DNA of 64,000 bases from Aromatoleum anaerobium. Its GTDB lineage: Bacteria > Pseudomonadota > Gammaproteobacteria > Burkholderiales > Rhodocyclaceae. The notes beneath the pieces are model-generated. The model saw nothing but the letters and a program-made list of their open reading frames with translations, was not told the DNA's origin and ran no database searches. This document shows, piece by piece, positions 25,301 through 52,229 of this stretch. Made by a program: the position numbers and the translations under genes. Each line of letters begins with the position of its first letter. Within the stretch, counting starts at the first letter, position 1. The DNA lies in assembly GCF_012910705.2 (NCBI RefSeq), contig NZ_WTVG02000038.1, positions 310,001-374,000 of the forward strand. The letters run 5' to 3'.

Positions 25301-25376
25301 GGGTCGTTAGCTCAGCTGGTAGAGCAGCGGACTTTTAATCCGTTGGTCGCAGGTTCGAATCCCGCACGGCCTACCA
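25301..25376 (+). tRNA. tRNA-Lys (anticodon TTT)
   Basis: 76 nt including encoded CCA. The D-arm GCTCAGCTGGTAGAGC, anticodon loop CTTTTAA and T-loop TTCGAAT are all present. Two oddities stand out: the acceptor stem has a G1-U72 wobble and a U4-G69 wobble (GGGTCGT against ACGGCCT), and the T-stem has an A-C mismatch at its third pair (GCAGG against CCCGC). The rest folds normally. Confidence 0.93.
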
Positions 25377-25390
25377 AAAAACACAGAACC

Positions 25391-25466
25391 GGGGGTATAG
25401 CTCAGTTGGTAGAGCAGCTGACTCTTAATCAGTAGGTCGTAGGTTCGAATCCTACTGCCCCCACCA
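25391..25466 (+). tRNA. tRNA-Lys (anticodon CTT)
   Basis: 76 nt with encoded CCA, 14 bp after the first tRNA. The acceptor stem GGGGGTA/TGCCCCC, D-arm and T-arm all pair well. The anticodon loop is CTCTTAA, giving CUU, which reads AAG. It is co-transcribed with the UUU tRNA and followed by a terminator. Confidence 0.95.
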
Positions 25467-25482
25467 GCAGATTCAAGCACTT

Positions 25483-25510
25483 AGGCCAGTTCTCGCGAGC
25501 TGGCCTTTTT
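25483..25510 (+). terminator. Intrinsic terminator of the tRNA-Lys operon
   Basis: AGGCCAG and CTGGCCT form a 7-bp stem around a 10-nt loop, followed directly by a run of T. It begins 17 bp after the second tRNA. Confidence 0.9.
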
Positions 25511-25522
25511 GCTTTCTGGAGA

Positions 25523-25783
25523 TCAGGTAGAGATAGAACCAGCGCCCCTGCACCTGCGTGCAAACGAAAGCAACTGCTCGTGACAGCGGCGAAAAAGCTT
25601 CAGTCGCGGCCCGAACTCGGGGACTGAGATTGCCACCCCCTTACGGGCCGCAATAGCCCATTCGTTTGGACTCCACTTTGAAACCTTGTCAGGATCAATT
25701 CCAAGGGACAGGGTAATCGCCTCATGCGCCGACAGTCTCGGCATATGTCGCCAAATAGCCCAGTTCGGTTCAGGCTTGCTCAT
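25523..25783 (-). CDS. Hypothetical protein of mobile-element type, probably truncated (86 aa)
   Basis: 86 residues starting MSKPEPNWAIWRHMPRLSAHEAITLSLGIDPDKV. The WxxWRxMPxLxxxEAxxLSLGIxPD pattern resembles N-termini of hypothetical proteins I associate with integrated elements of betaproteobacteria; those are usually longer. Here the frame stops soon after FGPRLKLFRRCHEQLL with a low-complexity end, suggesting a 3' truncation near the tRNA-Lys end. Function unknown. Together with its neighbours it marks a small accessory patch beside the tRNAs. Confidence 0.5.
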   Translation of the reverse strand: MSKPEPNWAIWRHMPRLSAHEAITLSLGIDPDKVSKWSPNEWAIAARKGVAISVPEFGPRLKLFRRCHEQLLSFARRCRGAGSIST

Positions 25784-25882
25784 CGTTCGCGCCCCTTCGT
25801 GCGCCCCTCAGGTAGGTGCCGCGCCAGCCGGGTGAAGGTGTCCCGGTTTTCCCTCCGTCGAGGTAGGCGCGGCGTTGCTCGG

Positions 25883-26170
25883 TCACGCGCTCAACGCCTC
25901 GATGACGGCGGCCGGGTTGCGCTCGATGACGTTCAGCAGCACGAGTGCGGGGCCGTGTGGCGTGCGGTCGCCTCGCTCCCAATGGCGAAGCGTGGCAGTC
26001 GAGAAGCCGAAGCGGGCGGCGAACTGCTCCTGTGTCATGCCCACCTTGGCGCGCAACGCTTTTACATCCACCGGGCGCGGCCGGTGGATGCGAGTTGCCG
26101 GGGCGCGGCCTTCGGCGTGCTCGATGGCCTCCATCAAACCGCGCTTGATGCTTTCGAATGCGGTGCTCAT
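25883..26170 (-). CDS. XRE-family antitoxin, HigA2/NadS-like
   Basis: 95 residues starting MSTAFESIKRGLMEAIEHAEGR. The HTH lies in the second half (VDVKALRAKVGMTQEQFAARFGFSTATLRHWERGDRTPHGPAL), and the protein ends NPAAVIEALSA, typical of this antitoxin class. It would neutralise the RelE-like toxin and repress the operon. Its ATG at 26170 overlaps the TGA at 26167-26169 of the interrupted toxin frame. The toxin body is now 1.8 kb upstream, beyond an IS605-type element, so its native promoter is separated from it. Confidence 0.82.
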   Translation of the reverse strand: MSTAFESIKRGLMEAIEHAEGRAPATRIHRPRPVDVKALRAKVGMTQEQFAARFGFSTATLRHWERGDRTPHGPALVLLNVIERNPAAVIEALSA

Positions 26171-26203
26171 GTTCGTTTCCCTCTCCATGCTTTGACCAGC
26201 AGC
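26167..26203 (-). pseudogene. 3' remnant of the interrupted toxin gene
   Basis: Joining base 27978 to 26203 on the minus strand regenerates an open toxin frame ending LLVKAWRGKRT and stopping in the TGA that overlaps the antitoxin ATG. The joined gene would encode 112 residues, the usual size for this toxin family. This 37-bp remnant is now read as the end of tnpB. Confidence 0.7.
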
Positions 26204-27471
26204 GTCTTGACATCCTCCCCGGCCTGAAGGCCGGAGATTCCTGCTGCGCTCAGGCGCGGGCATTGAGCCGCCCCTGAGTCGCTTCGGTGGGTTCCTGCTG
26301 CTGACGGCATGACCGCACCGTTCACTTCACAGGCTAACCGGGCGTGTCCCGCCCTTAGCACATTGATCGCGCCAACCACGTCGGCGTTTTCCTCGAAGCC
26401 GCATTCCACGCACTCGAACCGGGCTTGCGTCTGGCGGTTGGCCGACGACACGTGGCCGCAGCATGGACAGGTTCGACTCGTGTTGCGCGGCGGCACGGCG
26501 ATGAGGTGTCCGCCGTTCCACGCCAGCTTGTAGTCCAGTTGTCGTCGGAACTCGGCCCAGCCTTGATCGAGGATGGCTTTGTTCAGGCCCGACTTGGCCC
26601 GAACCTGTTTCCCCGGTTGCTCGCTACTGCCTGCCGCCGACCTCGACATGTTCCGCACCTGCAAGTCCTCGATGCACACCATCGCGTGGTTTTGGCTGAT
26701 CGTGGTTGAGGTCTTGTGCAGGTAGTCGCGGCGGGCGTTACCGATGCGGGAATGGATCTTCTGGACCTTGGCCCTAGCTTTCTTCCAGTTGTTGCTGAAC
26801 TTCGTTTTGCGGCTCATGGCCTGTTGCGCGCGGCGCAAAGCGGTCTGATGCCGTTTGAAGCTGTTGAGCGGAGCGTAAAACGTGCCGTCCGAAAGCGTGG
26901 CGAAGCGCGCCACGCCCATGTCGATGCCAACCGCACCGCCGTTGGGGAGGGGTTGCTCGACCTCGCGCTCCGTCTGAACGCTCACATACCACTTGCCGCA
27001 CGACTGGCTAACCGTGACGTTCTTCACCGTGCCCAGCACGTCCCGGCTGTTGCGATAACGCAACCAGCCGAGCTTTGGCAGAAACAGGCGGCTGTTCGCC
27101 TGCTCAAGTTTGATCTGCTTCGGGTCGGGATAGCGGAAGCTGTCGGCCTGGCCTTTCTTCTTGAAGCGCGGGAAATCGGCCCGCTTCAAGAAGAAGTTGG
27201 CGTAAGCCCGCTCCAGATCCTTGAGCGTCTGCTGCAGAGGGTGAACGGGGGCGCCGGACAGCCAGCCCGTATCCGGGCTGTTGCGCCACTCGGTGAGCCG
27301 CTTGCACAGCCCGGCATAACCGAGCTTCTTCTCGCCTTGCTCGTAGCGTTCTTTCTGCAGCGCCAGCGCCTTGTTGAACACGAACCGGCACGAGCCAGCG
27401 AAGCGGCGCATCTGCCGCTCCTGCTGGCCGTCCGGGCTGAGTTCGAATTTGAAGGCTTGAAGTCGTTGCAT
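26167..27471 (-). CDS. tnpB: TnpB RNA-guided nuclease of an IS200/IS605 element
   Basis: 434 residues. The N-terminal HTH (OrfB_IS605-like) starts MQRLQAFKFEL. The RuvC-like core keeps its acidic residues in GIDMGVARFA, MVCIEDLQVRNM and NADVVGAINVL. The zinc-binding segment CPCCGH...CVECG lies between the last two. TnpB proteins use a right-end-derived RNA to cut DNA next to the element's target motif and help retain the element. The last ~11 residues (LLVKAWRGKRT) come from flanking DNA, because the frame runs past the predicted element end at 26204. It is divergent from tnpA. Confidence 0.9.
   Translation of the reverse strand: MQRLQAFKFELSPDGQQERQMRRFAGSCRFVFNKALALQKERYEQGEKKLGYAGLCKRLTEWRNSPDTGWLSGAPVHPLQQTLKDLERAYANFFLKRADFPRFKKKGQADSFRYPDPKQIKLEQANSRLFLPKLGWLRYRNSRDVLGTVKNVTVSQSCGKWYVSVQTEREVEQPLPNGGAVGIDMGVARFATLSDGTFYAPLNSFKRHQTALRRAQQAMSRKTKFSNNWKKARAKVQKIHSRIGNARRDYLHKTSTTISQNHAMVCIEDLQVRNMSRSAAGSSEQPGKQVRAKSGLNKAILDQGWAEFRRQLDYKLAWNGGHLIAVPPRNTSRTCPCCGHVSSANRQTQARFECVECGFEENADVVGAINVLRAGHARLACEVNGAVMPSAAGTHRSDSGAAQCPRLSAAGISGLQAGEDVKTLLVKAWRGKRT
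26216..26237. repeat. Right-end sub-terminal hairpin of the IS605-type element
   Basis: CCGGCC-TGAA-GGCCGG at 26219-26234, extended outward by two pairs after one C-A mismatch. This is the same core as the left-end hairpin. In this family such hairpins are bound by TnpA and, at this end, fall within the TnpB guide RNA scaffold. Confidence 0.75.
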
Positions 27472-27493
27472 GGCTCAATCATACTCTTGGTCT

Positions 27494-27907
27494 ATGAGCG
27501 ATGACAACGATATTCGACATGGACGGCACTGCGTTTTTAAGATGCACGCCCACTTGGTCTTTGTGGCGAAATACCGCCGCAGAGTGTTCGATGGCGACGC
27601 CATCAATCGGCTGCGCACGATCTTCGCCAAGGTCTGCGCTGACTTCGAGGTGCAACTGATCGAGATGGATGGCGAGGACGATCATGTTCACCTGTTGGTG
27701 GAATATCCGCCGAAGGTGGCCGTCTCCCACCTCGTCAACAGCCTCAAGGGCGTGTCCAGCCGCTTGCTGCGCAAGGAGCGGCCCGACATCGAGAAACGCT
27801 ACTGGAAAGGCGTGCTGTGGTCGCCTTCCTACTTCGCCTCGTCCTGCGGCGGGGCGCCGATTTCCATCGTGCGCCAGTACATCGAACAACAGCAGAGCCC
27901 ACACTGA
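27494..27907 (+). CDS. tnpA: TnpA, HUH/Y1 single-strand transposase of the IS605-type element
   Basis: 137 residues from ATG 27494 (MSDDNDIRHGRHCVFKMH), the usual size. The HUH motif is DDHVHLLVEYPP (HVH). The C-terminal helix ISIVRQYIEQQ supplies the expected catalytic Tyr. The family cuts and rejoins single strands at the hairpin ends. It is divergent from tnpB, whose start lies 23 bp away, so the two share a very short control region. Confidence 0.92.
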   Translation: MSDDNDIRHGRHCVFKMHAHLVFVAKYRRRVFDGDAINRLRTIFAKVCADFEVQLIEMDGEDDHVHLLVEYPPKVAVSHLVNSLKGVSSRLLRKERPDIEKRYWKGVLWSPSYFASSCGGAPISIVRQYIEQQQSPH

Positions 27908-27934
27908 AACCCAGGGACGGCTACGCCGCCCGCG

Positions 27935-28279
27935 CTATCCTTCCCCGGCCTGAAGGCCGGGGTTTGCCGCGCACCGGGTCAATCCCGCCAGTTCGTTGCG
28001 CTCCGCCTTGCTCAGGTTGGCGCGGTCGCCCTTGGCGAACAGCGTCAGCAGGTACAGCGGCATGGCGTCGTCGTGGAAGTAGTAGATGACGCGAACTCCC
28101 CCGCTCTTGCCTTGCCCACCGCGCCGCCAGCGCAATTTGCGCACGCCTCCCGTGCCTTCCATCAGATCGCCGTCCTTCGGGTGCTCGGCCAGATAGCGGA
28201 TGATGTCTTGCCGCTCTTCGGCGCTCAGCAATTTGTCGGCGGTGCGGATGTACTCGGGCAACTCGGCAACGGTTTGCAT
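27935..28279 (-). pseudogene. RelE/HigB2-like toxin gene interrupted by the IS605-type element
   Basis: From ATG 28279 the frame encodes MQTVAELPEYIRTADKLLSAEERQDIIRYLAEHP, then GTGGVRKLRWRRGGQGKSGGVRVIYYF and MPLYLLTLFAKGDRANLSKAERNELAGLT, the RelE-superfamily ribosome-dependent mRNase pattern of HigB2-type toxins. From base 27977 it enters the insertion element and ends in a foreign 13-residue tail (RCAANPGLQAGEG). The native tail lies at 26167-26203. The chimera is 114 residues, close to native length, so residual activity cannot be excluded. Confidence 0.8.
27943..27962. repeat. Left-end sub-terminal hairpin of the IS605-type element
   Basis: A perfect 8-bp stem CCCCGGCC/GGCCGGGG with TGAA loop (plus strand), 16 bp inside the predicted left end at 27977. 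It matches the right-end hairpin core in sequence and orientation. Confidence 0.8.
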
Positions 28280-28525
28280 GGGTTGGAGTGTAATCCATTG
28301 GAACAGTTCAGGCGCTGGGCAAGGCAACCACGTTGCCGGCCGGCTGCCGGATCTCACTCTCCGCTACAGCATCAAGAGATACGCCCGGGAACGAAAAACG
28401 CTTGCCTCGTCCTCGGGGGGACTACATCAGTCGCGGCGTGGTGGTGCCTGAGAGCGCGGTCAGGTAGCCGACGTACGGTTTCCTGGAGTATCCGGACATA
28501 CTCCGGGCTCAACCCGCGAGCCGGT
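28280..28525. other. Gap between toxin and rtcB without a recognised gene
   Basis: About 245 bp. It must carry the promoter of the toxin operon next to 28280. Short open frames on both strands show no recognisable family. I see no convincing hairpin or RNA gene. Confidence 0.5.
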
Positions 28526-29720
28526 CTAGCCTTTGACGCACACCACCTGCTTCAGCGTATGCAGCACATCCGTGAGGTCGCTCTGGTTGGCCATTACCGC
28601 GTCGATGTCCTTGTAGGCGCCGGGAATTTCGTCGATGACGCCCTTGTCCTTGCGGCAGACCACGCCGGCCGTCTGCCGCACGAGATCCGCCTCGGTGAAT
28701 TGCTTCTCTGCCGCGGTGCGGCTCATCCGGCGCCCGGCGCCGGGCGCTCGAACAGAAGCTTTCCGCGTTGCCCTTGCCGCGCACGATGTAGCTGCGCGCA
28801 CCCATGCTGCCCGGAACGATGCCCAGGTCGCCCTCGCGCGCGCGAATCGCCCCCTTGCGCGTCACCCAGACGTTCGCCCCGAAGTGATGCTCCTGCGCGA
28901 CGTAGTTGTGGTGGCAATTGACCACCTCGCTGGTCACCACGAACGGCGGCCAATGCCGGGCCAGCGCGGAGAGCACCAGATCCAGCATGCACTGGCGGTT
29001 CTGTCGCGCATAGTCCTGCGCCCACTGCACTGCCTCGACGTAATCGTCGAAGTGCTCGCTGCCTTCGGGGAAGTACGCCAGATCGCGATCCGGAAGCTGG
29101 ATCATCCAGCGTTCCATGTCCTTGCGCGCGAGCTGGATGAAGTAGTCGGCCATGGCATTGCCGATACCCCGGCTGCCGGAATGGAGCATGACCCAAACGC
29201 GATCCGCCTCGTCGAGACATATCTCTATGAAGTGATTGCCGCCGCCCAGCGTCCCCATCTGGTGTGTCCATTTCGAGACTTTGCCGAATGCCTTGAGAAG
29301 CTGCGGATGGCGTTCGGTGAGCGCCTTGAGCCGCGCCTCGAAAGGCCGCACCGCCTCCGCCCGCACGGTATCGTCGCAGTGTTGCGCGCGGCCGACCGGA
29401 ACGTCATGACTGATCTGCTCGAAAACGGCCCTGAGCGACCTGTCGTCAATATCGTTGGCGGTCAGCGAAAGCCTTGCGGCGACCATGCCGCAGCCGATAT
29501 CGACACCGACCGCAGCAGGGATGATCGCCTTGTGGGTGGCGATGACCGAACCGATGGTCGCACCGATTCCGACGTGGGCATCGGGCATCGCGGCGACATG
29601 ATGATGAATGAAGGGCATCTGCGCGAGGTTCGCGAGTTGGGCCTTCGACTTCTCGTCGACGTCATCGGTCCAGATCTTCACGGGAACACGCTGGCCGGTC
29701 AGCACTTGTTTGATCGGCAT
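28526..29720 (-). pseudogene. rtcB: RtcB-type RNA ligase with a frameshift at the catalytic His motif
   Basis: From ATG 29720 (after AGGAGGGTGTC) the frame encodes MPIKQVLTGQRVPVKIW, the metal-site AAVGVDIGCGM, LGGGNHFIEI, HSGSRGIGN and NCHHNYV, all RtcB signatures. It then reaches GNAESFCS and shifts. Continuing requires another frame, GAGRRMSRTAAEKQFTEADLV, ending VLHTLKQVVCVKG at 28526. The family motif SCSHGAGR, whose His is guanylylated during GTP-dependent ligation, is lost at the break. The net change fits 2 missing bases, inside a perfect 18-nt palindrome (28730-28747). Either inactivated or a sequencing artefact. Confidence 0.85.
28730..28747. repeat. Perfect 18-nt palindrome at the rtcB frameshift
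   Basis: GCGCCCGGCGCCGGGCGC is its own reverse complement. It covers the exact place where the RtcB catalytic His codon should be. Such a palindrome can template mutation and can also compress in sequencing reactions. Confidence 0.9.
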
Positions 29721-29856
29721 GACACCCTCCTGTCGAATCCTGCTCAGGCGCGCTCCACCGTGCGGCGCACAGGCCGGCTCCGCCAGCTGCCGCACCCGCG
29801 GCACGTCCCCGGAGAGAACCCGCATGCCCGCCGCGCCCGATGCGCCACGAACTCGC

Positions 29857-30057
29857 TCACGGGAACGTGCCGCGGTGCTTCTTCTCCATGTCTTCGGTCT
29901 TGTGCTCGGGTGTCACGCCCATGCGCTGCTGATTTTCGCGCTGCTTTTCCTTGTCGCTCCGGGCATCCTCACCCTGCGTGCCGGGCTTGGGAGGGTTCGC
30001 CGCGGAGGACTGGGGATTGTCGGCTGTGTCCGACTTGCGCGTGTGAGGTTCGGCCAT
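29857..30057 (-). CDS. Small hydrophilic conserved-looking protein (66 aa)
   Basis: 66 residues from ATG 30057, which has a good ribosome-binding region (GGAGGAAGCAGAC). Very polar and probably disordered: MAEPHTRKSDTADNPQ through QRENQQRMGVTPEHKTEDMEKKHRGTFP. I have a general impression of similar small proteins ending with this KTEDMEKKHRGTFP-like tail elsewhere in proteobacteria, but know no function. It lies 16 bp after the zinc-knuckle gene and 136 bp before rtcB on the same strand, so a shared transcript is likely. Confidence 0.65.
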   Translation of the reverse strand: MAEPHTRKSDTADNPQSSAANPPKPGTQGEDARSDKEKQRENQQRMGVTPEHKTEDMEKKHRGTFP

Positions 30058-30073
30058 GTCTGCTTCCTCCTGT

Positions 30074-30250
30074 CTATGCTCCCCCGATTCCTTCAATGAC
30101 TACGCCGGTGCCGCCACACTCGACGCAGGGTTTGCCGTCGACAACTCCTGTTCCCTTGCAGGCGCGGCAGGTGTTCTCGCCGGTTCCGGGAGTTCCGGGA
30201 GGTGCCTGGTCGCCGGGATGAGTCTCAGGTCGAGCCGGTTCGGTGTCCAT
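30074..30250 (-). CDS. Small zinc-finger protein with DnaJ-type CxxCxGxG repeats (58 aa)
   Basis: 58 residues from ATG 30250. After a Pro/Gly/Glu-rich N-terminus (MDTEPARPETHPGDQ) come two half-motifs, CRACKGTGVV and CVECGGTGVV, matching the CxxCxGxG zinc-binding repeats of DnaJ. Two half-sites can hold one zinc ion. There is no J-domain or other region. It lies 16 bp upstream of the 66-residue gene and in the same direction as rtcB, so a role near RNA repair or chaperoning is possible but unproven. Confidence 0.75.
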   Translation of the reverse strand: MDTEPARPETHPGDQAPPGTPGTGENTCRACKGTGVVDGKPCVECGGTGVVIEGIGGA

Positions 30251-30378
30251 CGCGAACTCCTTGCTGGGATCAGTCCGAATTCGACGGGACGCAAAGAGGC
30301 GGGTTCCGGCGCGTACATGTCGTTACACGCGCCCACGGGCGGTAAACGCGACGCGGCCAGGCGCACGGCCGGCGGTGT

Positions 30379-31098
30379 TTACAGCCACTCCACGTTCGCC
30401 GAGAACAGGTAACCGGCGCCGTACACGGTCTTGATCAGCCTGGGATGAAGCGGGTTTTCTTCGAGTCGCTTGCGCAGCCGCGAGATGCGCAGGTCGATGC
30501 TGCGGTCGAGCGCCGCGACGTCGCGCCCGCCGAGGAGCTGCTCGCGAGTGAGGATCTGGTTGGGACGCTGGAGCAACGCGCCCAGCAGCCGGGCTTCGGC
30601 CATGCTCAGCGTCTCGGTTTCGCCATCGGGAGAAGTGAGGGCGTTGTTGCCGGGTTCGAAGCGCCAGCCGGCGAATTCGGCGATGCGCACGCCCTTCGCT
30701 GGCGCGTCAGCCGCGGCCGGTTCGCGATAGCGCCGCAGGATGCTGCGCACCCGGGCGATGAATTCGCGCGGCTCGAACGGCTTGACCATGTAGTCGTCGG
30801 CCCCCAGTTCCAGCCCCGTCACGCGGTCATGAGTGTCGCCGCGGCCGGTGACGATCAGCAGGCCGAAGCCATGGCGGGAGCGGACGTGGCTGAGGATGTC
30901 GAGGCCGTCCATGTCGGGCAGGCCGAGATCGAGAACGCACAGGCGCGGAGGGTCGGAATCCAGCCGCCGCAGGAAATCCGCGCCGGTCGCGAAAAATTGC
31001 GCCTCGAAGCCGAATTTCTCGAGCGTCTGGGCCATCAGCCGGGCGACCGCAGGGTCGTCCTCGACGACGTGGATCGTTTCCTTCGGCTTGTTCGGCAC
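30379..31098 (-). CDS. OmpR-family response regulator
   Basis: 239 residues from GTG 31098, chosen because GGAG lies 7 bp upstream and the receiver domain starts right after (TIHVVEDDPAVARLM). The phosphorylated Asp is in LCVLDLGLPDMDGLDIL (about residue 55), the switch Thr in IVTGRGD and the Lys in MVKPFEPREF. The C-terminal ~100 residues are a winged-helix domain (EARLLGALLQRPNQILTREQLL, RSIDLRISRLRKRLE). It starts 20 bp after the histidine kinase stop and should be its partner. Confidence 0.92.
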   Translation of the reverse strand: MPNKPKETIHVVEDDPAVARLMAQTLEKFGFEAQFFATGADFLRRLDSDPPRLCVLDLGLPDMDGLDILSHVRSRHGFGLLIVTGRGDTHDRVTGLELGADDYMVKPFEPREFIARVRSILRRYREPAAADAPAKGVRIAEFAGWRFEPGNNALTSPDGETETLSMAEARLLGALLQRPNQILTREQLLGGRDVAALDRSIDLRISRLRKRLEENPLHPRLIKTVYGAGYLFSANVEWL

Positions 31099-31118
31099 GG
31101 CACGACTCCGCAATTCGG

Positions 31119-32663
31119 TCAGCGACAGATTGCGTCCAGCATAGCCGACAGTCTCTCCTTGCTGAAAGGCTTGGCGAGCAGCGGGACGCCGAGATCCTGG
31201 GTGATCGCATCGGCCTGGTCGACGTAGCCGCTCATCAGGATCACCGGGAGGCCGGGACGAAAGCGGCGAATGAAGCGCGTCAGCCCGCACCCGTCGAGTC
31301 CGCCGGGCATCACGACGTCCGACAGCACGAGCGAGATCGCCGCGACGTTCTCGACGATGTCGGCCGCTTCCTGGCCGTTTTCGGCTTCCAGCACCGAGCA
31401 GCCGAGCGCGGCGAGCTGCTTGCGCACGACGGTGCGTACCTCCGGGTCGTCCTCGACGAGCAGCACCAGCTGCCCCGCAAGATGCGTCGCGGGCGCCGCG
31501 GCGCGGCCCGCTTCGCCGGCTGCGGCAGGACTCGCGACGGTGCGCGGCAGCAACAGCGCGACCATGGTGCCGCAGGCCTGGCGGCTGCGGATGCGTACCG
31601 CCCCGCCCGACTGGCGGGCGAAGCCATACACCATCGGCAGGCCCAGCCCGCTGCCCATGCCGAAACGCTTGGTCGTGAAGAAAGGTTCGAACACGTGCGC
31701 GAGCGTCGTCGCATCCATCCCGGTGCCGCTATCGCGGACCGTCACCTGCACGTAGTCGCCCGGGGGAATATCGAGCTCCGCCGCGGCAGCCGCATCGAGC
31801 GTCTCGACGGCGGACTCGATGCGCAGCTCCCCGCCTTCGGGCATCGCGTCGCGGGCGTTGAGGGCAAGGTTGAGCAGCGCGCTCTCGAGCTGGTGCGCGT
31901 CGGTCATCGCGACCAGTTCGGCATTGCGGCTCGCCGTGTGCAGCGCGATGGTTTCGGGCAGCGAGCGCCGGATCAGCTTCGCCATGCCCAGGATCAGCTC
32001 GTTGACTTCGACCGGCCGCGGCGCGAGCGGCTGCTGGCGCGAGAAGGCCAGCAGCCGCTCGATCAACTGCGCGCCGCCCTGCGCGGCCTGCATCGCCGGG
32101 GCGACGAATTCCTCGATCGCGGCGTCGTCCGGGTGCGCTTCCCGCAGGCCCGCGAGATTGCCCATGACGACGGTCAGCATGTTGTTGAAATCGTGCGCGA
32201 GCCCGCCGCTGAGCTGGCCGATCGCCTCCATTTTCTGCGCTTGCGCGAGCGCGTGCTGCGTCCGGCGCTGCTCGGTGATGTCGACCGCGTGCACGTAGCA
32301 GCCGAGCACTTCGCCGGCGGCGCCGATGTCGGGCACCAGTGTGCTGCGCGCGTATAGCGTGCGCCCTGCCGCGTCGCTCATCGTGTATTCATAGGTGAGC
32401 CGCTCGCCGCCCAGCGCCCGGCCGAGCGGCTCGCGCACCGCGTCGAAAACCTCCGCGGGCACGACATCCACGATGCGGTGCCCGACCACTTGGTCGCTTT
32501 CCCGTCCGAACCACGCCGCGTACGCCTTGTTCGCGTAGCGATACGTCCAGCTGTCGTCGAAATAGGCGATATGCGCCGGAATTGCATCCATGATGTCGCG
32601 CAGGCGCCGGTTCTCGCCAGTCGGGTCCCCGGTCTGCGCCGAAGGCCTGTCGTCGATGTCCAT
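31119..32663 (-). CDS. PAS-domain hybrid histidine kinase with C-terminal receiver
   Basis: 514 residues from ATG 32663. A PAS domain covers ~20-140 (LRDIMDAIPAHIAYFDDSWTYRYANKAYAAWFG). The HisKA box follows with AIGQLSGGLAHDFNNMLTVVMGNL (phospho-His in LAHDFNN), then the ATPase domain with LNLALNARDAM, DSGTGMD and GMGSGLGLPMVYG. A receiver domain at ~390-514 (LVLLVEDDPEVRTVV, VLSDVVMPGG) makes it hybrid. No TM helix is visible, so it senses in the cytoplasm. It is divergent from an acyl-CoA synthetase gene. Signal unknown. Confidence 0.92.
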   Translation of the reverse strand: MDIDDRPSAQTGDPTGENRRLRDIMDAIPAHIAYFDDSWTYRYANKAYAAWFGRESDQVVGHRIVDVVPAEVFDAVREPLGRALGGERLTYEYTMSDAAGRTLYARSTLVPDIGAAGEVLGCYVHAVDITEQRRTQHALAQAQKMEAIGQLSGGLAHDFNNMLTVVMGNLAGLREAHPDDAAIEEFVAPAMQAAQGGAQLIERLLAFSRQQPLAPRPVEVNELILGMAKLIRRSLPETIALHTASRNAELVAMTDAHQLESALLNLALNARDAMPEGGELRIESAVETLDAAAAAELDIPPGDYVQVTVRDSGTGMDATTLAHVFEPFFTTKRFGMGSGLGLPMVYGFARQSGGAVRIRSRQACGTMVALLLPRTVASPAAAGEAGRAAAPATHLAGQLVLLVEDDPEVRTVVRKQLAALGCSVLEAENGQEAADIVENVAAISLVLSDVVMPGGLDGCGLTRFIRRFRPGLPVILMSGYVDQADAITQDLGVPLLAKPFSKERLSAMLDAICR

Positions 32664-32804: not shown

Positions 32805-32874
32805 TGCTTGATCGTGCACGCTCACGTTCGCCGCTCGCGTGGGCCCGTCGGAACGATCGCCCCAGGAGAAAGAA

Positions 32875-47862: not shown

Positions 47863-48531
47863 ATGGATACGCTCCAATGCTCATTCTGTAGCCACGAGAA
47901 CCCGGCGACCGCGAAGTTCTGCAATGCCTGCGGTTCCCTGCTGAACCTGCAGTTGTGCAAGCATTGCGGCGCCATCGATCACGCTTCGGCGACCGCCTGC
48001 TACAAGTGCGGGGCTTCATTCGCGACCGGCGACGAGGCGAGCATGCGGCCCGGGGCGACCGGCGACGAAACCGCCGATACCGCGATGAACCCGGGTTTCC
48101 CGCACCAACCTGCCCGGCCGCAAGCGTCGCGCAGCATGAAGCCGGCCGACGATCCCGGCGAACGCCTGTCCAGCCCCTGGACGAGAGCGCTGGCGGTGGT
48201 CATTTTCGTCATCGGCGCCGCGATTCTTTACCGCATCTACTCGACCGGCGGCGAGTCGACGAGCGTGGCACCGGACGCCGCCTTGCCTTCCACCGCCCCG
48301 GTCGACGCCACGCTCCGGGCCGTCCCGCCCTCTTCCGCGCCGGCCGACGCCGGCGCGGTGTCGATCGCGCCTCCCCCGCTCGCGCCGGGATCAGCGACGA
48401 ACGAGGAAGCGCTCGCGGCAGAGCCGGCGCCGCCCGCGGCCAGGACAGAACCTTCGGCACCCGCCGACAACGCCCGAGCGCCGCCCTATCCCTGCACTCC
48501 TGCAGTCGCCGCACTCGGACTATGCAACTGA
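47863..48531 (+). CDS. Double zinc-ribbon membrane protein with C-terminal LGLC tag
   Basis: 222 residues. Two N-terminal zinc ribbons use C6-C9/C20-C23 and C32-C35/C46-C49. One TM helix lies at ~108-126 (ALAVVIFVIGAAILYRIY). The following ~95 residues are Ala/Pro/Ser-rich. The protein ends PCTPAVAALGLCN, with Cys 211 and Cys 221. Topology should place the zinc ribbons in the cytoplasm and the tag in the periplasm. Function unknown. Before the IS1182-type element arrived, the next gene would have been the TAXI protein at 50090, which has the same C-terminal pattern. Confidence 0.75.
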   Translation: MDTLQCSFCSHENPATAKFCNACGSLLNLQLCKHCGAIDHASATACYKCGASFATGDEASMRPGATGDETADTAMNPGFPHQPARPQASRSMKPADDPGERLSSPWTRALAVVIFVIGAAILYRIYSTGGESTSVAPDAALPSTAPVDATLRAVPPSSAPADAGAVSIAPPPLAPGSATNEEALAAEPAPPAARTEPSAPADNARAPPYPCTPAVAALGLCN

Positions 48532-48542
48532 GTGCAACTGAG
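48523..48542. repeat. Tandem 10-bp duplication at the IS1182 left junction
   Basis: TGCAACTGAG occurs twice in direct succession, covering the stop codon of the zinc-ribbon gene and running into the first base of the insertion element. Confidence 0.7.
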
Positions 48543-50060
48543 AGGCTGTGAAAAATCCCCGGCCAGTTATATGCCTTTGGTATAATTAGGTCTTGCTACG
48601 AGGTCTGGATTTGCGCCGATGACGAAGACGCGAGCACGGGTGCTGCTGCCCAACCGGGGGCAGATGGAGTTTCGGGCGAGTGACCTGGAGTCACTGCTGC
48701 CGGAGGGGCATCGGGCGCGCCTGGTGTGGGCGTACGTCGAGCGGCAAGACCTGTCACGGTTCTACGCCGGGATTCGTGCGGTCGATGGCGGGGTGGGCCG
48801 CTCGGCAATCGCGCCGGAGATTTTGCTGGCGCTGTGGTTGTACGCCACGCTCGACGGGGTGGGCAGCGCGCGGGCGGTGTCACGGCTGATCGAATCGCAT
48901 GACGCCTACCGCTGGTTGTGCGGCGGGGTTCAGGTCAATCACCACACCCTTTCGGACTTTCGCAAGGATCAGGGCGAAGGGCTGGACGAGTTGTTGAGTG
49001 TGAGCATCGCCAGCCTGATGGCGGCCGGGGTAGTCAAGCTCAAACAGGTGGCGCAGGACGGGATGCGTGTGCGCGCCAGCGCCGGGGCGGGCTCGTTTCG
49101 CCGCAAGGAGAAGCTCGAAGGCTACCTGGAGGCGGCGCGTGCCGAAGTCGCGCGGCTCAAAGCCGAGGTGGAGGCGGACCCGGGAGAGGCCGAACGGGCG
49201 CGGGAAGCGGCCCGGCTACGGGCGGCGAAAGAGCGTGAAGCGCGTCTTGAGAAGGCGCTGGCGCGGCTGCCCGAGATCGAAGCGATCAAGCAGCGGCAAG
49301 GCAAAAACCCCGACCAGGCGCGCGCGTCGATGACCGATGCCGAAGCGACGGTGATGAAGATGGGCGACGGCGGCTTTCGGCCGGCGTACAACCCGCAACT
49401 GGCGAGCGACGCCGACTCGCTGGTGATCGTGGGGGTCGAGGTGGCCACCGTCGGCAGCGACCAAGGGCAGATGGTGCCGATGATCGAGCAGGTCACCGCG
49501 CGCTGCGGTCGGCTGCCCGAAGCCTGGCTGGTCGATGGCGGCTACGTCGGACACGAGCAGATCGAGCAGGCGAGCCAAAGCACCGTCGTCTATGGGCCGG
49601 TGCCGCAACCCAAGAACAAGGCGGTCGATCCTCACCAGGCGAAGGCCGGCGACAGCGAAGCGGTGGCGGCCTGGCGGCAACGGATGGGCACGGACGAGGC
49701 GAAGGTCATTTACAAGCGGCGAGCGGCAACGGCCGAATGCGTCAATGCGCACAGCCGCAACCGCGGCCTGCAGCAGTTCCGGGTGCGGGGTCTGGCGAAG
49801 GTCAAGTGTGTGATGCTGATCTTTGCTTTGGCGCACAACCTGATGCGCATGGTCAGCCTCGCACCGGAATTGCTCGGGGTAGGGATAGGTGCGTCTGCCG
49901 TTCCCGGAATCGGGGTTTAAGGGGCGAAAAATGGGGAAAAACGTCAAATGAACCGTCGATAGCAGCACAAACGGTGCAAAAACCCTATCGCGCCCAGCAA
50001 AACGGCGTTAACCCCGCTCGCGCGTCTAATCGGTCCTGCGAACGAAAGATTCACAAACTC
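48542..50060 (+). mobile_element. IS1182-family insertion element
   Basis: About 1,519 bp. The imperfect terminal inverted repeats start GAGGCTGTGAA on the left and GAGTTTGTGAA (reverse complement of the right end), sharing 9 of 11 bases. TGA is present directly outside both ends and may be the target duplication, though the family often makes a longer one. It contains one intact transposase gene at 48619-49920 and a 140-bp non-coding right part. The boundaries are by eye. Confidence 0.75.
48619..49920 (+). CDS. IS1182-family DDE transposase
   Basis: 433 residues, apparently intact. The N-terminal DUF772-type DNA-binding domain holds LLPEGHRARLVWAYVERQDLSRFY and YRWLCGGVQVNHHTLSDFRK. The catalytic acids are likely in AQDGMRVRA, LVDGGYVG and AATAECVNAHSRNRG. 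A charged coiled coil lies at ~155-230 (EARLEKALARLPEIEAIKQRQ), as in this family. It is in the same direction as its neighbours, so outward transcription could reach the TAXI gene. Confidence 0.93.
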   Translation: MTKTRARVLLPNRGQMEFRASDLESLLPEGHRARLVWAYVERQDLSRFYAGIRAVDGGVGRSAIAPEILLALWLYATLDGVGSARAVSRLIESHDAYRWLCGGVQVNHHTLSDFRKDQGEGLDELLSVSIASLMAAGVVKLKQVAQDGMRVRASAGAGSFRRKEKLEGYLEAARAEVARLKAEVEADPGEAERAREAARLRAAKEREARLEKALARLPEIEAIKQRQGKNPDQARASMTDAEATVMKMGDGGFRPAYNPQLASDADSLVIVGVEVATVGSDQGQMVPMIEQVTARCGRLPEAWLVDGGYVGHEQIEQASQSTVVYGPVPQPKNKAVDPHQAKAGDSEAVAAWRQRMGTDEAKVIYKRRAATAECVNAHSRNRGLQQFRVRGLAKVKCVMLIFALAHNLMRMVSLAPELLGVGIGASAVPGIGV

Positions 50061-50089
50061 TGAGCATTCAGGCAAAAAGGGGAACCAAA

Positions 50090-51139
50090 ATGCGGGTATC
50101 GGCGATCGGCATCGTGGCATGCACCTTCCTGGCCCTCCAGCCTCCGGCAGCATCGGCGGCGGCGGAGTTCAAGATCGTGACCGCCTCGGAGCGCGGCACC
50201 TACATCCAGATCGGCCGCGACATCGCGAAGTTCGTCGCGCCGGAAGCGAACATCGCGCTCGAGGTGCTGCCGTCGGCCGGCTCGGCCGAAAACGTGCGAC
50301 GCCTGCGCTACGAGCCCGGCGTGAAGTTCGCGATGGTGCAGTCGGACGTCTATCAGGCGTTCCTCGATCAGGCGCAGGAGGGCAACGTCGCCGCGGCCCG
50401 CATGCTGCATCCGCTGCGCGTGATCATGCCGCTGTACAACGAGGAGATCTACTTCATCACGCGGGCCGACACCCCGGCCGAATTCATCCACGAAATAAAG
50501 GACGCGAAAATCAACGTCGGCCCGGTAGGCAGCGGCACCGCGCTGTCGGCGACGACGCTGTACCGGCTGATGTTCGGCAAACCGATCGCCGAGGAAAACA
50601 CCAGCTACCTTTCGAACGAGGACGCGCTCGTCAAGCTGTTGACCGAAAAAACGCTCGATGTCGTCGTCGTCGTCGCCGGGCAGCCGGCGAAGCTCCTGAC
50701 CGACATGAAACCCGAGGCGCGGCAGTTCATCAAGCTGCTCAAGCTCGATCCCAACCACAGCACGGCCCGGGCCGCGCTGCGCACGTATTTCCCGGCGACC
50801 GTACGCGCCGCGAACTATCCCAACGTGCTGACCGAGGACGTCCCCGGCCTCGCCGTCAAGGCGTTCCTCGTGACCTACGATTACAATCGCCCCGAGACGA
50901 TCCGTTACCTGACCAAATTCGCCGAATCGCTGTGCCACAATTTCCCGCGGCTGCGCACCGAAGGCCATCCGAAGTGGAATGAAGTCGAGCTTTCGCTGCC
51001 GGCGCTGGGCAAGGGCTGGTCCTACTTTCCGCCGATGGAGCGACACCTGCGCGCATGCCCGGCGATGACGGCGGCGTCGCAGGCCGTGAAGCGGAGGCAG
51101 TGCTCGCAGCAGGAAAAGATTCTGGGCCTGTGCGAGTGA
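50090..51139 (+). CDS. TAXI-family TRAP solute-binding protein with C-terminal LGLC tag
   Basis: 349 residues. The signal peptide is VSAIGIVACTFLALQPPAASA. The TAXI fold is shown by FKIVTASERGTYIQIGRDIAKFV, VLPSAGSAENVRRLRY, VQSDVYQAF and INVGPVGSGTALSATTLYRLMFG. Family members bind glutamate or other acids for TRAP permeases, but no permease gene is nearby, so it may sense or scavenge. The extra C-terminus holds CSQQEKILGLCE (Cys 338 and 348), matching the zinc-ribbon protein across the IS1182-type element. The start is 30 bp after the element. Confidence 0.85.
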   Translation: MRVSAIGIVACTFLALQPPAASAAAEFKIVTASERGTYIQIGRDIAKFVAPEANIALEVLPSAGSAENVRRLRYEPGVKFAMVQSDVYQAFLDQAQEGNVAAARMLHPLRVIMPLYNEEIYFITRADTPAEFIHEIKDAKINVGPVGSGTALSATTLYRLMFGKPIAEENTSYLSNEDALVKLLTEKTLDVVVVVAGQPAKLLTDMKPEARQFIKLLKLDPNHSTARAALRTYFPATVRAANYPNVLTEDVPGLAVKAFLVTYDYNRPETIRYLTKFAESLCHNFPRLRTEGHPKWNEVELSLPALGKGWSYFPPMERHLRACPAMTAASQAVKRRQCSQQEKILGLCE

Positions 51140-51269
51140 GCGACGGCCCGCGGTGGAGAACTCGCGGAGGAAATCCCGGAGCCGCGGAAAATAGTTCAGG
51201 CAGCCAGGGGCGGCCGGGTTAAGCTTTTCGACCGATGAGTCGCTCCTGTCCTGCCTGCGCCGTACCGCG

Positions 51270-52229
51270 ATGCCTTCCGAATTCGACCTGATCCGCCGCC
51301 ACTTCACCCGCCCCGCCCGTCACACTGAGCTCGCCGTCGGCGATGACGCGGCGCTGTTCACGCCGCGGCCGGGCATGCAGCTCGCGACCTCGACCGACAT
51401 GCTGGTCGCCGGCACGCATTTCTTCGCCGACGCGGACCCCGAGGCGCTGGGCTGGAAAGCGCTGGCCGTCAACATCTCGGATCTCGCGGCGATGGGAGCC
51501 GAACCGCGCTGGGCGCTGCTCGCGCTCGCCCTGCCAGCCGCCGACGAAGCGTGGATCGAGGCGTTCGCGCGGGGCCTGTTCGCGTGCGCCGGGCGCTTCG
51601 GCGTCGACCTCGCGGGCGGCGACACGACGCGCGGCCCGCTGAACCTGTGTGTGACGATCATCGGTGAAGTGCCAACAGGCACGGCGATCACGCGCGCCGG
51701 CGCCCGCCCGGGCGACGACATCTGGATCACCGGCGAACCCGGCCGCGGTGCGCTCGGCCTCGCTTTCCTGCGCGGCGAGACGGCCCTCGATGCCGACGCC
51801 GTCGCGCCATGCATCGACGCGCTGCATCGCCCCCAACCGCGCGTCGCGGCCGGCCTCGCGCTGCACGGTGTCGCCCACGCGATGCTGGACGTCTCCGACG
51901 GGCTGGTCGGCGATCTCGCGCACATCCTCGAGGCTTCCGGCACCGGCGCGGTCCTCGACCTCGCCGCGCTGCCGCTCGGCGCGCTGCTCGCGGTCGGCGC
52001 CGACGTCGAATTCGCGCAGCGCTGCGTGCTCGGCGGCGGCGACGACTACGAGCTGCTATTCACCGCCGCCGCGGCGCAGCGCGAGCACCTCGGCGCGCTC
52101 GCCCGGCGGCTGGATCTGCCGTTCACACGCATCGGCACAATCACCGGCGACACCGGCCGCTTGCTGCTGCGGCACGCCGACGGCAGCGAACGCCCGCCGG
52201 CGTGCCGCAGCTACGATCATTTCGCCTGA
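51270..52229 (+). CDS. thiL: Thiamine-monophosphate kinase
   Basis: 319 residues, AIR-synthase fold. Signatures are FDLIRRHF at the start, VGDDAALFTPRPGMQLATSTDMLVAGTHFF (metal and ATP binding), AVNISDLAAMGAEPRWALLALALP, DLAGGDTTRGP and LDVSDGLVGDLAHIL. It phosphorylates thiamine monophosphate to the cofactor TPP. It is followed closely by pgpA, as in many betaproteobacteria. Confidence 0.95.
   Translation: MPSEFDLIRRHFTRPARHTELAVGDDAALFTPRPGMQLATSTDMLVAGTHFFADADPEALGWKALAVNISDLAAMGAEPRWALLALALPAADEAWIEAFARGLFACAGRFGVDLAGGDTTRGPLNLCVTIIGEVPTGTAITRAGARPGDDIWITGEPGRGALGLAFLRGETALDADAVAPCIDALHRPQPRVAAGLALHGVAHAMLDVSDGLVGDLAHILEASGTGAVLDLAALPLGALLAVGADVEFAQRCVLGGGDDYELLFTAAAAQREHLGALARRLDLPFTRIGTITGDTGRLLLRHADGSERPPACRSYDHFA

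Follow-up and report, generated by a model that had tools for sequence, protein, structure and literature searches.

The window, a 64,000-nucleotide stretch of the Aromatoleum anaerobium genome, contains a frameshifted copy of rtcB on its minus strand. The product of rtcB is a GTP-dependent RNA ligase that acts in RNA repair. The gene, its pieces and its neighbours are as follows:

28526..29720, minus strand: rtcB pseudogene of the 398-codon type, with its start codon at 29720, its original stop at 28526 and a frameshift at codon 327
28509..29720, minus strand: present reading frame of 403 aa, made of 326 native and 77 foreign residues
28526..28744, minus strand: C-terminal rtcB piece, out of frame and still conserved according to its profile match and substitution counts
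28730..28747, no strand: 18-bp perfect palindrome GCGCCCGGCGCCGGGCGC, apparently made by the 2-bp loss described below
25301-25376 and 25391-25466, plus strand: tandem tRNA-Lys genes at the border of the variable region that holds rtcB
26207..27977, no strand: IS200/IS605-type element, absent from the related genome G002, where its flanks abut
27470-27907, plus strand: TnpA (Y1 transposase) of this element, by domain match
26167-27471, minus strand: TnpB (Cas12f1-like OrfB) of this element, by domain match

A profile search of the genome for RtcB (PF01139) returned two abutting pieces in different open frames (profile positions 1-347 and 348-426, with scores of 335.9 and 79.4 bits, where the cut-off is 27) and no second match elsewhere. 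The window copy resembles RtcB in that the two pieces jointly cover the whole Pfam profile (positions 1-426) and its close orthologues are intact with HGAGR; it differs in that the catalytic His is missing and the C-terminal 72 residues are out of frame. Whereas a functional RtcB has a single open frame over the whole domain and the guanylylated His in HGAGR, here the frame changes beyond profile position 347, 2 bp are missing from codon 327, and the last 72 native residues, from His327 onward, are lost from the product. No Rfam RNA family was found within 27000-31500, and a plasmid similarity search gave two records (77.0% and 73.1% identity) and no close copy.

The gene lies in a variable stretch (25301-29760) between the two tRNA-Lys genes and a response regulator gene. 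Three related genomes were compared with the window, to which they show 95% (G002), 94% (G003) and 92% (G009) identity at a conserved gene. G002 is collinear on both sides and has a phage-type integrase in place of the window rtcB, while G003 and G009 carry rtcB together with ∼20 kb of extra DNA upstream of it, between rtcB and the response regulator gene. The variability of this region, the integrase in G002 and the extra DNA in G003 and G009 suggest that rtcB here behaves as an accessory gene in an integration hotspot. The IS200/IS605-type element adjoins the rtcB pseudogene and cuts a RelE-type toxin gene (27935-28357; PF06296, E 1.3e-7) near its 3' end; residues 36-161 of 173 align in the comparison of this toxin with the matching G002 ORF. 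Elsewhere in the window, ∼3.2 kb (47932-51166) is also absent from G002, with both flanks collinear, and holds most of an ORF on the minus strand (50051-51307).

The nearest intact orthologue is L014 in G003 (93.3% identity over the gene), followed by L013 in G009 (89.4% identity over 1396 bp). Both have 398 codons and share the motif sequence SSAHGAGRRMSR. A three-way alignment of the window gene with these two contains one indel in 1197 bp, namely 2 bp of the His327 codon, a position that falls on the HGAGR motif when aligned to RtcB proteins of solved structure. The guanylylated His, which takes GMP, is reported as His404 in P. horikoshii and His337 in E. coli (PMC8668186). The codons around the catalytic His in the intact gene make up a quasi-palindrome, GCGCCC-AC-GGC/GCCGGGCGC, with a 2-base bulge, and this imperfect inverted repeat is present in both nearest intact orthologues. 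Since L013 and L014 match the window site except for 2 bp, the ancestor probably already held the quasi-palindrome with its 2-base bulge, and the 2-bp loss would have made the repeat perfect.

This comparison agrees with much of the earlier note, made from the window sequence, which had described a frameshift that removes the guanylylated His, a net deletion of 2 bp, a site that is a perfect palindrome and a gene otherwise well conserved (no further indel; dN/dS of 0.157 on the window branch). The note had also asked for a comparison with close relatives; these proved intact and differ at the site by the 2 bp. Two of its details need revision: (i) the motif that it took as ancestral, SCSHGAGR, is SSAHGAGR in this lineage; and (ii) the left arm was not newly created by copying of the right arm, because both intact orthologues already have it, their only difference from the window at this site being the 2 bp. 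A template switch would formally re-copy the left arm, yet its trace is the 2-bp loss alone.

The lost bases lie at about 28741-28744 inside the His codon, their exact placement being ambiguous. The longest palindrome is 12 bp in the intact L014 gene and 18 bp after the 2-bp loss. Taken alone, a palindrome of 18 bp is nothing special in such GC-rich DNA: 454 kb contain 12 of at least this length, and five first-order Markov simulations gave 8.8 on average. A search with a general repeat finder listed no inverted repeats for this stretch. The unusual feature is that a frameshift and a palindrome occur at the same spot. When all 912 distinct 2-bp deletions are made in the intact L014 gene, a single one yields a palindrome of at least 18 bp (0/927, 0/897 and 0/908 for deletions of 1, 4 and 5 bp), although such chance figures, here and in the genome alignment, carry ascertainment bias and are not a formal probability, because the finding was picked by a reader scanning windows for oddities. 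The alignment with G003 spans 51,627 columns, in which a single 2-bp deletion would create a palindrome of at least 18 bp at 14 sites and a single 1-bp deletion at seven; the only frameshift judged to lie within a real gene in this alignment coincides with one of these near-palindrome sites. Two palindromes of at least 18 bp are present on the A. anaerobium side of the alignment, of which one is unchanged in G003 and the other is the rtcB site.

We then assessed the age of the loss from substitutions counted by parsimony on the three sequences, with two ambiguous codons and the gapped codon dropped. The window branch carries 14 nonsynonymous and 27 synonymous changes (the dN/dS given above), compared with 11 and 22 on the L014 branch (dN/dS 0.151) and 16 and 27 on the L013 branch (dN/dS 0.179). 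Downstream (3') of the frameshift, the window branch has three nonsynonymous and 11 synonymous changes. At most about 14% of this branch was unconstrained (one-sided 95% bound with a neutral ratio of 3.31), a bound that rises to 19-26% with assumed neutral ratios of 2.5 and 2.0. The loss is therefore very recent or not real, because a longer freedom from constraint predicts more nonsynonymous changes. Neither the three-way alignment nor dN/dS shows decay beyond the 2-bp loss, and a recent mutation and a sequencing error account for this equally well. We also asked whether constraint had already been relaxed before the frameshift; the window branch gives no clear sign of it. Its substitutions are slightly less conservative (mean BLOSUM62 of −0.07 versus 0.36 and 0.19 on the other branches) and include L257W in a column that is invariant in 43 relatives; 13 of its 14 derived residues are also found in relatives, versus 7/11 and 11/16 on the other branches.

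On balance we lean towards a very young rtcB pseudogene that arose by a real 2-bp loss through quasi-palindrome template switching. On this reading, an accessory gene was most likely truly lost, very recently and by a mechanism already known. The 2-bp loss is known from one assembly of the strain, and both its reality and template switching as its cause are what we infer from the sequences as most likely. During replication, the nascent strand would fold back on itself at the quasi-palindrome hairpin, one arm would be copied from the other and the 2-base bulge would be skipped; the outcome would be a perfect palindrome, with the His codon gone and the frame shifted. In E. coli, template switching on the nascent strand is reported to make imperfect inverted repeats perfect or more perfect, with reporters whose 18-bp repeat carries 4 extra bases (PMC7202029), and DNA-protein crosslinks and some replication mutants are reported to raise the frequency of quasi-palindrome events (PMC6357072). 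Template switching is the best fit because the rtcB site shares this quasi-palindrome architecture, with 2 extra bases. As described for the E. coli lacZ QP5/QP6 reporters and the thyA hotspot (Ripley model), the repeat is imperfect, ∼18 bp long and has a few extra bases in one arm, and as in the QP reporters the mutation deletes the extra bases and the repeat becomes perfect (PMC7202029). Unlike in those reporters, the change in rtcB is natural and gene-inactivating, involves 2 rather than 4 extra bases, and has a mechanism that we read from the product only.

The strongest alternative, which we nevertheless consider somewhat unlikely, is a sequencing or assembly artefact in which the true gene is intact and its strong GC hairpin was read wrongly or collapsed. 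Such an artefact predicts the same product and the same absence of other decay, and many pseudogenes in public assemblies have been reported to be assembly errors (PMC11017572). Against it stands a hairpin control on non-overlapping 39-base stretches of the G003 alignment, with the cut set at the stability of the rtcB hairpin (−12.8 kcal/mol in G003). Among the 111 stretches that are equally or more stable, rtcB alone has an indel whose length is not divisible by three, and none of the remaining 110 has a frameshifting indel relative to G003, as judged from the assembly alone. With laxer cuts, such indels occur in 5/171 hairpins at −12 kcal/mol and in 12/355 at −10 kcal/mol; several of the additional indel-bearing hairpins are intergenic. 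The other 18-bp GC palindrome (window coordinate 67766, past the window end), which is unchanged in G003, also speaks against an artefact, as does the result that rtcB was judged the only real gene split between frames in four ORF comparisons. In these, 48/52 and 28/31 window ORFs were covered in one frame by G002 and G003, respectively, and conversely 48/50 ORFs of G002 and 31/34 of G003 were covered by the window. The remaining ORFs were judged to be the insertion element, stretch ends, DNA absent from the other genome, antisense ORFs and two frame-split ORFs. The second frame-split ORF is the start of an acyl-CoA ligase, whose N-terminal extension in G003 appears to be non-coding and whose window ORF starts at 32839; a 105-aa ORF of G003 at ∼67.2-67.5 kb (past the window end), a putative gene, is also frame-split. 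The surrounding assembly looks sound, and it is not ridden with frameshifts, because nearly all compared ORFs are covered in one frame. The earlier note had left a choice between a recent change and a sequencing error; both options stand, and the hairpin and ORF controls have weakened the second.

An ordinary 2-bp deletion by slippage or end joining, in which the inverted repeat is not involved and the palindrome is coincidental, is considerably less probable. It gives a product identical to that of a template switch, and the 1-base direct repeat (C) that flanks the deleted pair is enough for a slip. However, it would have to hit by chance the single 2-bp deletion among 912 that produces an 18-bp palindrome in this gene, and just 14 such sites exist in the whole G003 alignment.

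We also compared rtcB across related genomes. A PF01139 match is present in 14 of the 17 genus genomes and in 69 of the 150 family genomes (61 genomes without a match are left unlisted in the family table), so that RtcB appears to be patchy in this group, dispensable and easily lost. Another genome of the genus, G008, carries a longer RtcB type that lacks profile positions 104-349, i.e. the catalytic core including the His; this internal deletion is in-frame and leaves one open frame of 259 aa (L015 1501-1821, L018 1501-1731). The two losses thus differ in kind, a large in-frame deletion in G008 and a frameshift at the His in the window. A recurrent frameshift hotspot common to other species was considered and rejected: the palindrome, searched as an exact string with one genome per species, occurs in 1 of 249 family genomes, its own, and in none of the viral contigs. 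In the PF01139 table of the 150 family genomes, the window genome is the sole case, as read, with abutting pieces in different frames; in the remaining genomes, split matches are spread over different contigs, sit at contig edges or share one open frame.

Avoidance of quasi-palindromes by codon choice was likewise considered, and 92 intact loci, all numbered below L100 and all with the motif, give no sign of it. Observed versus expected inverted repeats in these loci number 3 versus 0.74 at ≥18 bp, 5 versus 2.3 at ≥16 bp and 13 versus 9.25 at ≥14 bp, an excess that is not evidence for enrichment because L013 and L014, which make up two-thirds of the cases of at least 18 bp, are related. A longer-type rtcB of the same genus, L004, has a quasi-palindrome at the His codon (motif from 2526 onward) that would reach 18 bp after a 4-bp deletion. 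That GC-rich rtcB His codons form a quasi-palindrome hotspot, at which repeated and perhaps reversible switching off would make rtcB a contingency-like locus of RNA repair, seems to us very doubtful. Titles and abstract openings of the literature on rtcB frameshifts and pseudogenes do not report this case. We regard it as a further example of a type of mutation that is already known.

What remains of the protein is most likely, judging from its sequence, without ligase activity. In silico frame correction by +1 gives SSAGAGR and by −2 gives SSAPGAGR, and neither restores the His. The least probable reading of all is that the frameshifted product keeps a non-ligation function or that recoding corrects the frame: a catalysis-independent regulatory role of RtcB through RtcR has been reported (PMC9650030) and purifying selection still covers the upstream part when the whole branch is considered, but the branch dN/dS mostly reflects the time before the event, the His is absent after either correction, the conserved C-terminus is no longer in frame and a profile search found no RtcA (PF01137) in the A. 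anaerobium genome.

If the loss is real, the window rtcB would be a clean natural quasi-palindrome mutation that deletes a catalytic residue, with the ancestral sequence kept in two relatives, and assays of template switching at high GC content could use it as a natural substrate. For the organism, our results suggest that, barring a sequence error, this strain of A. anaerobium is probably without RtcB-type RNA ligation.
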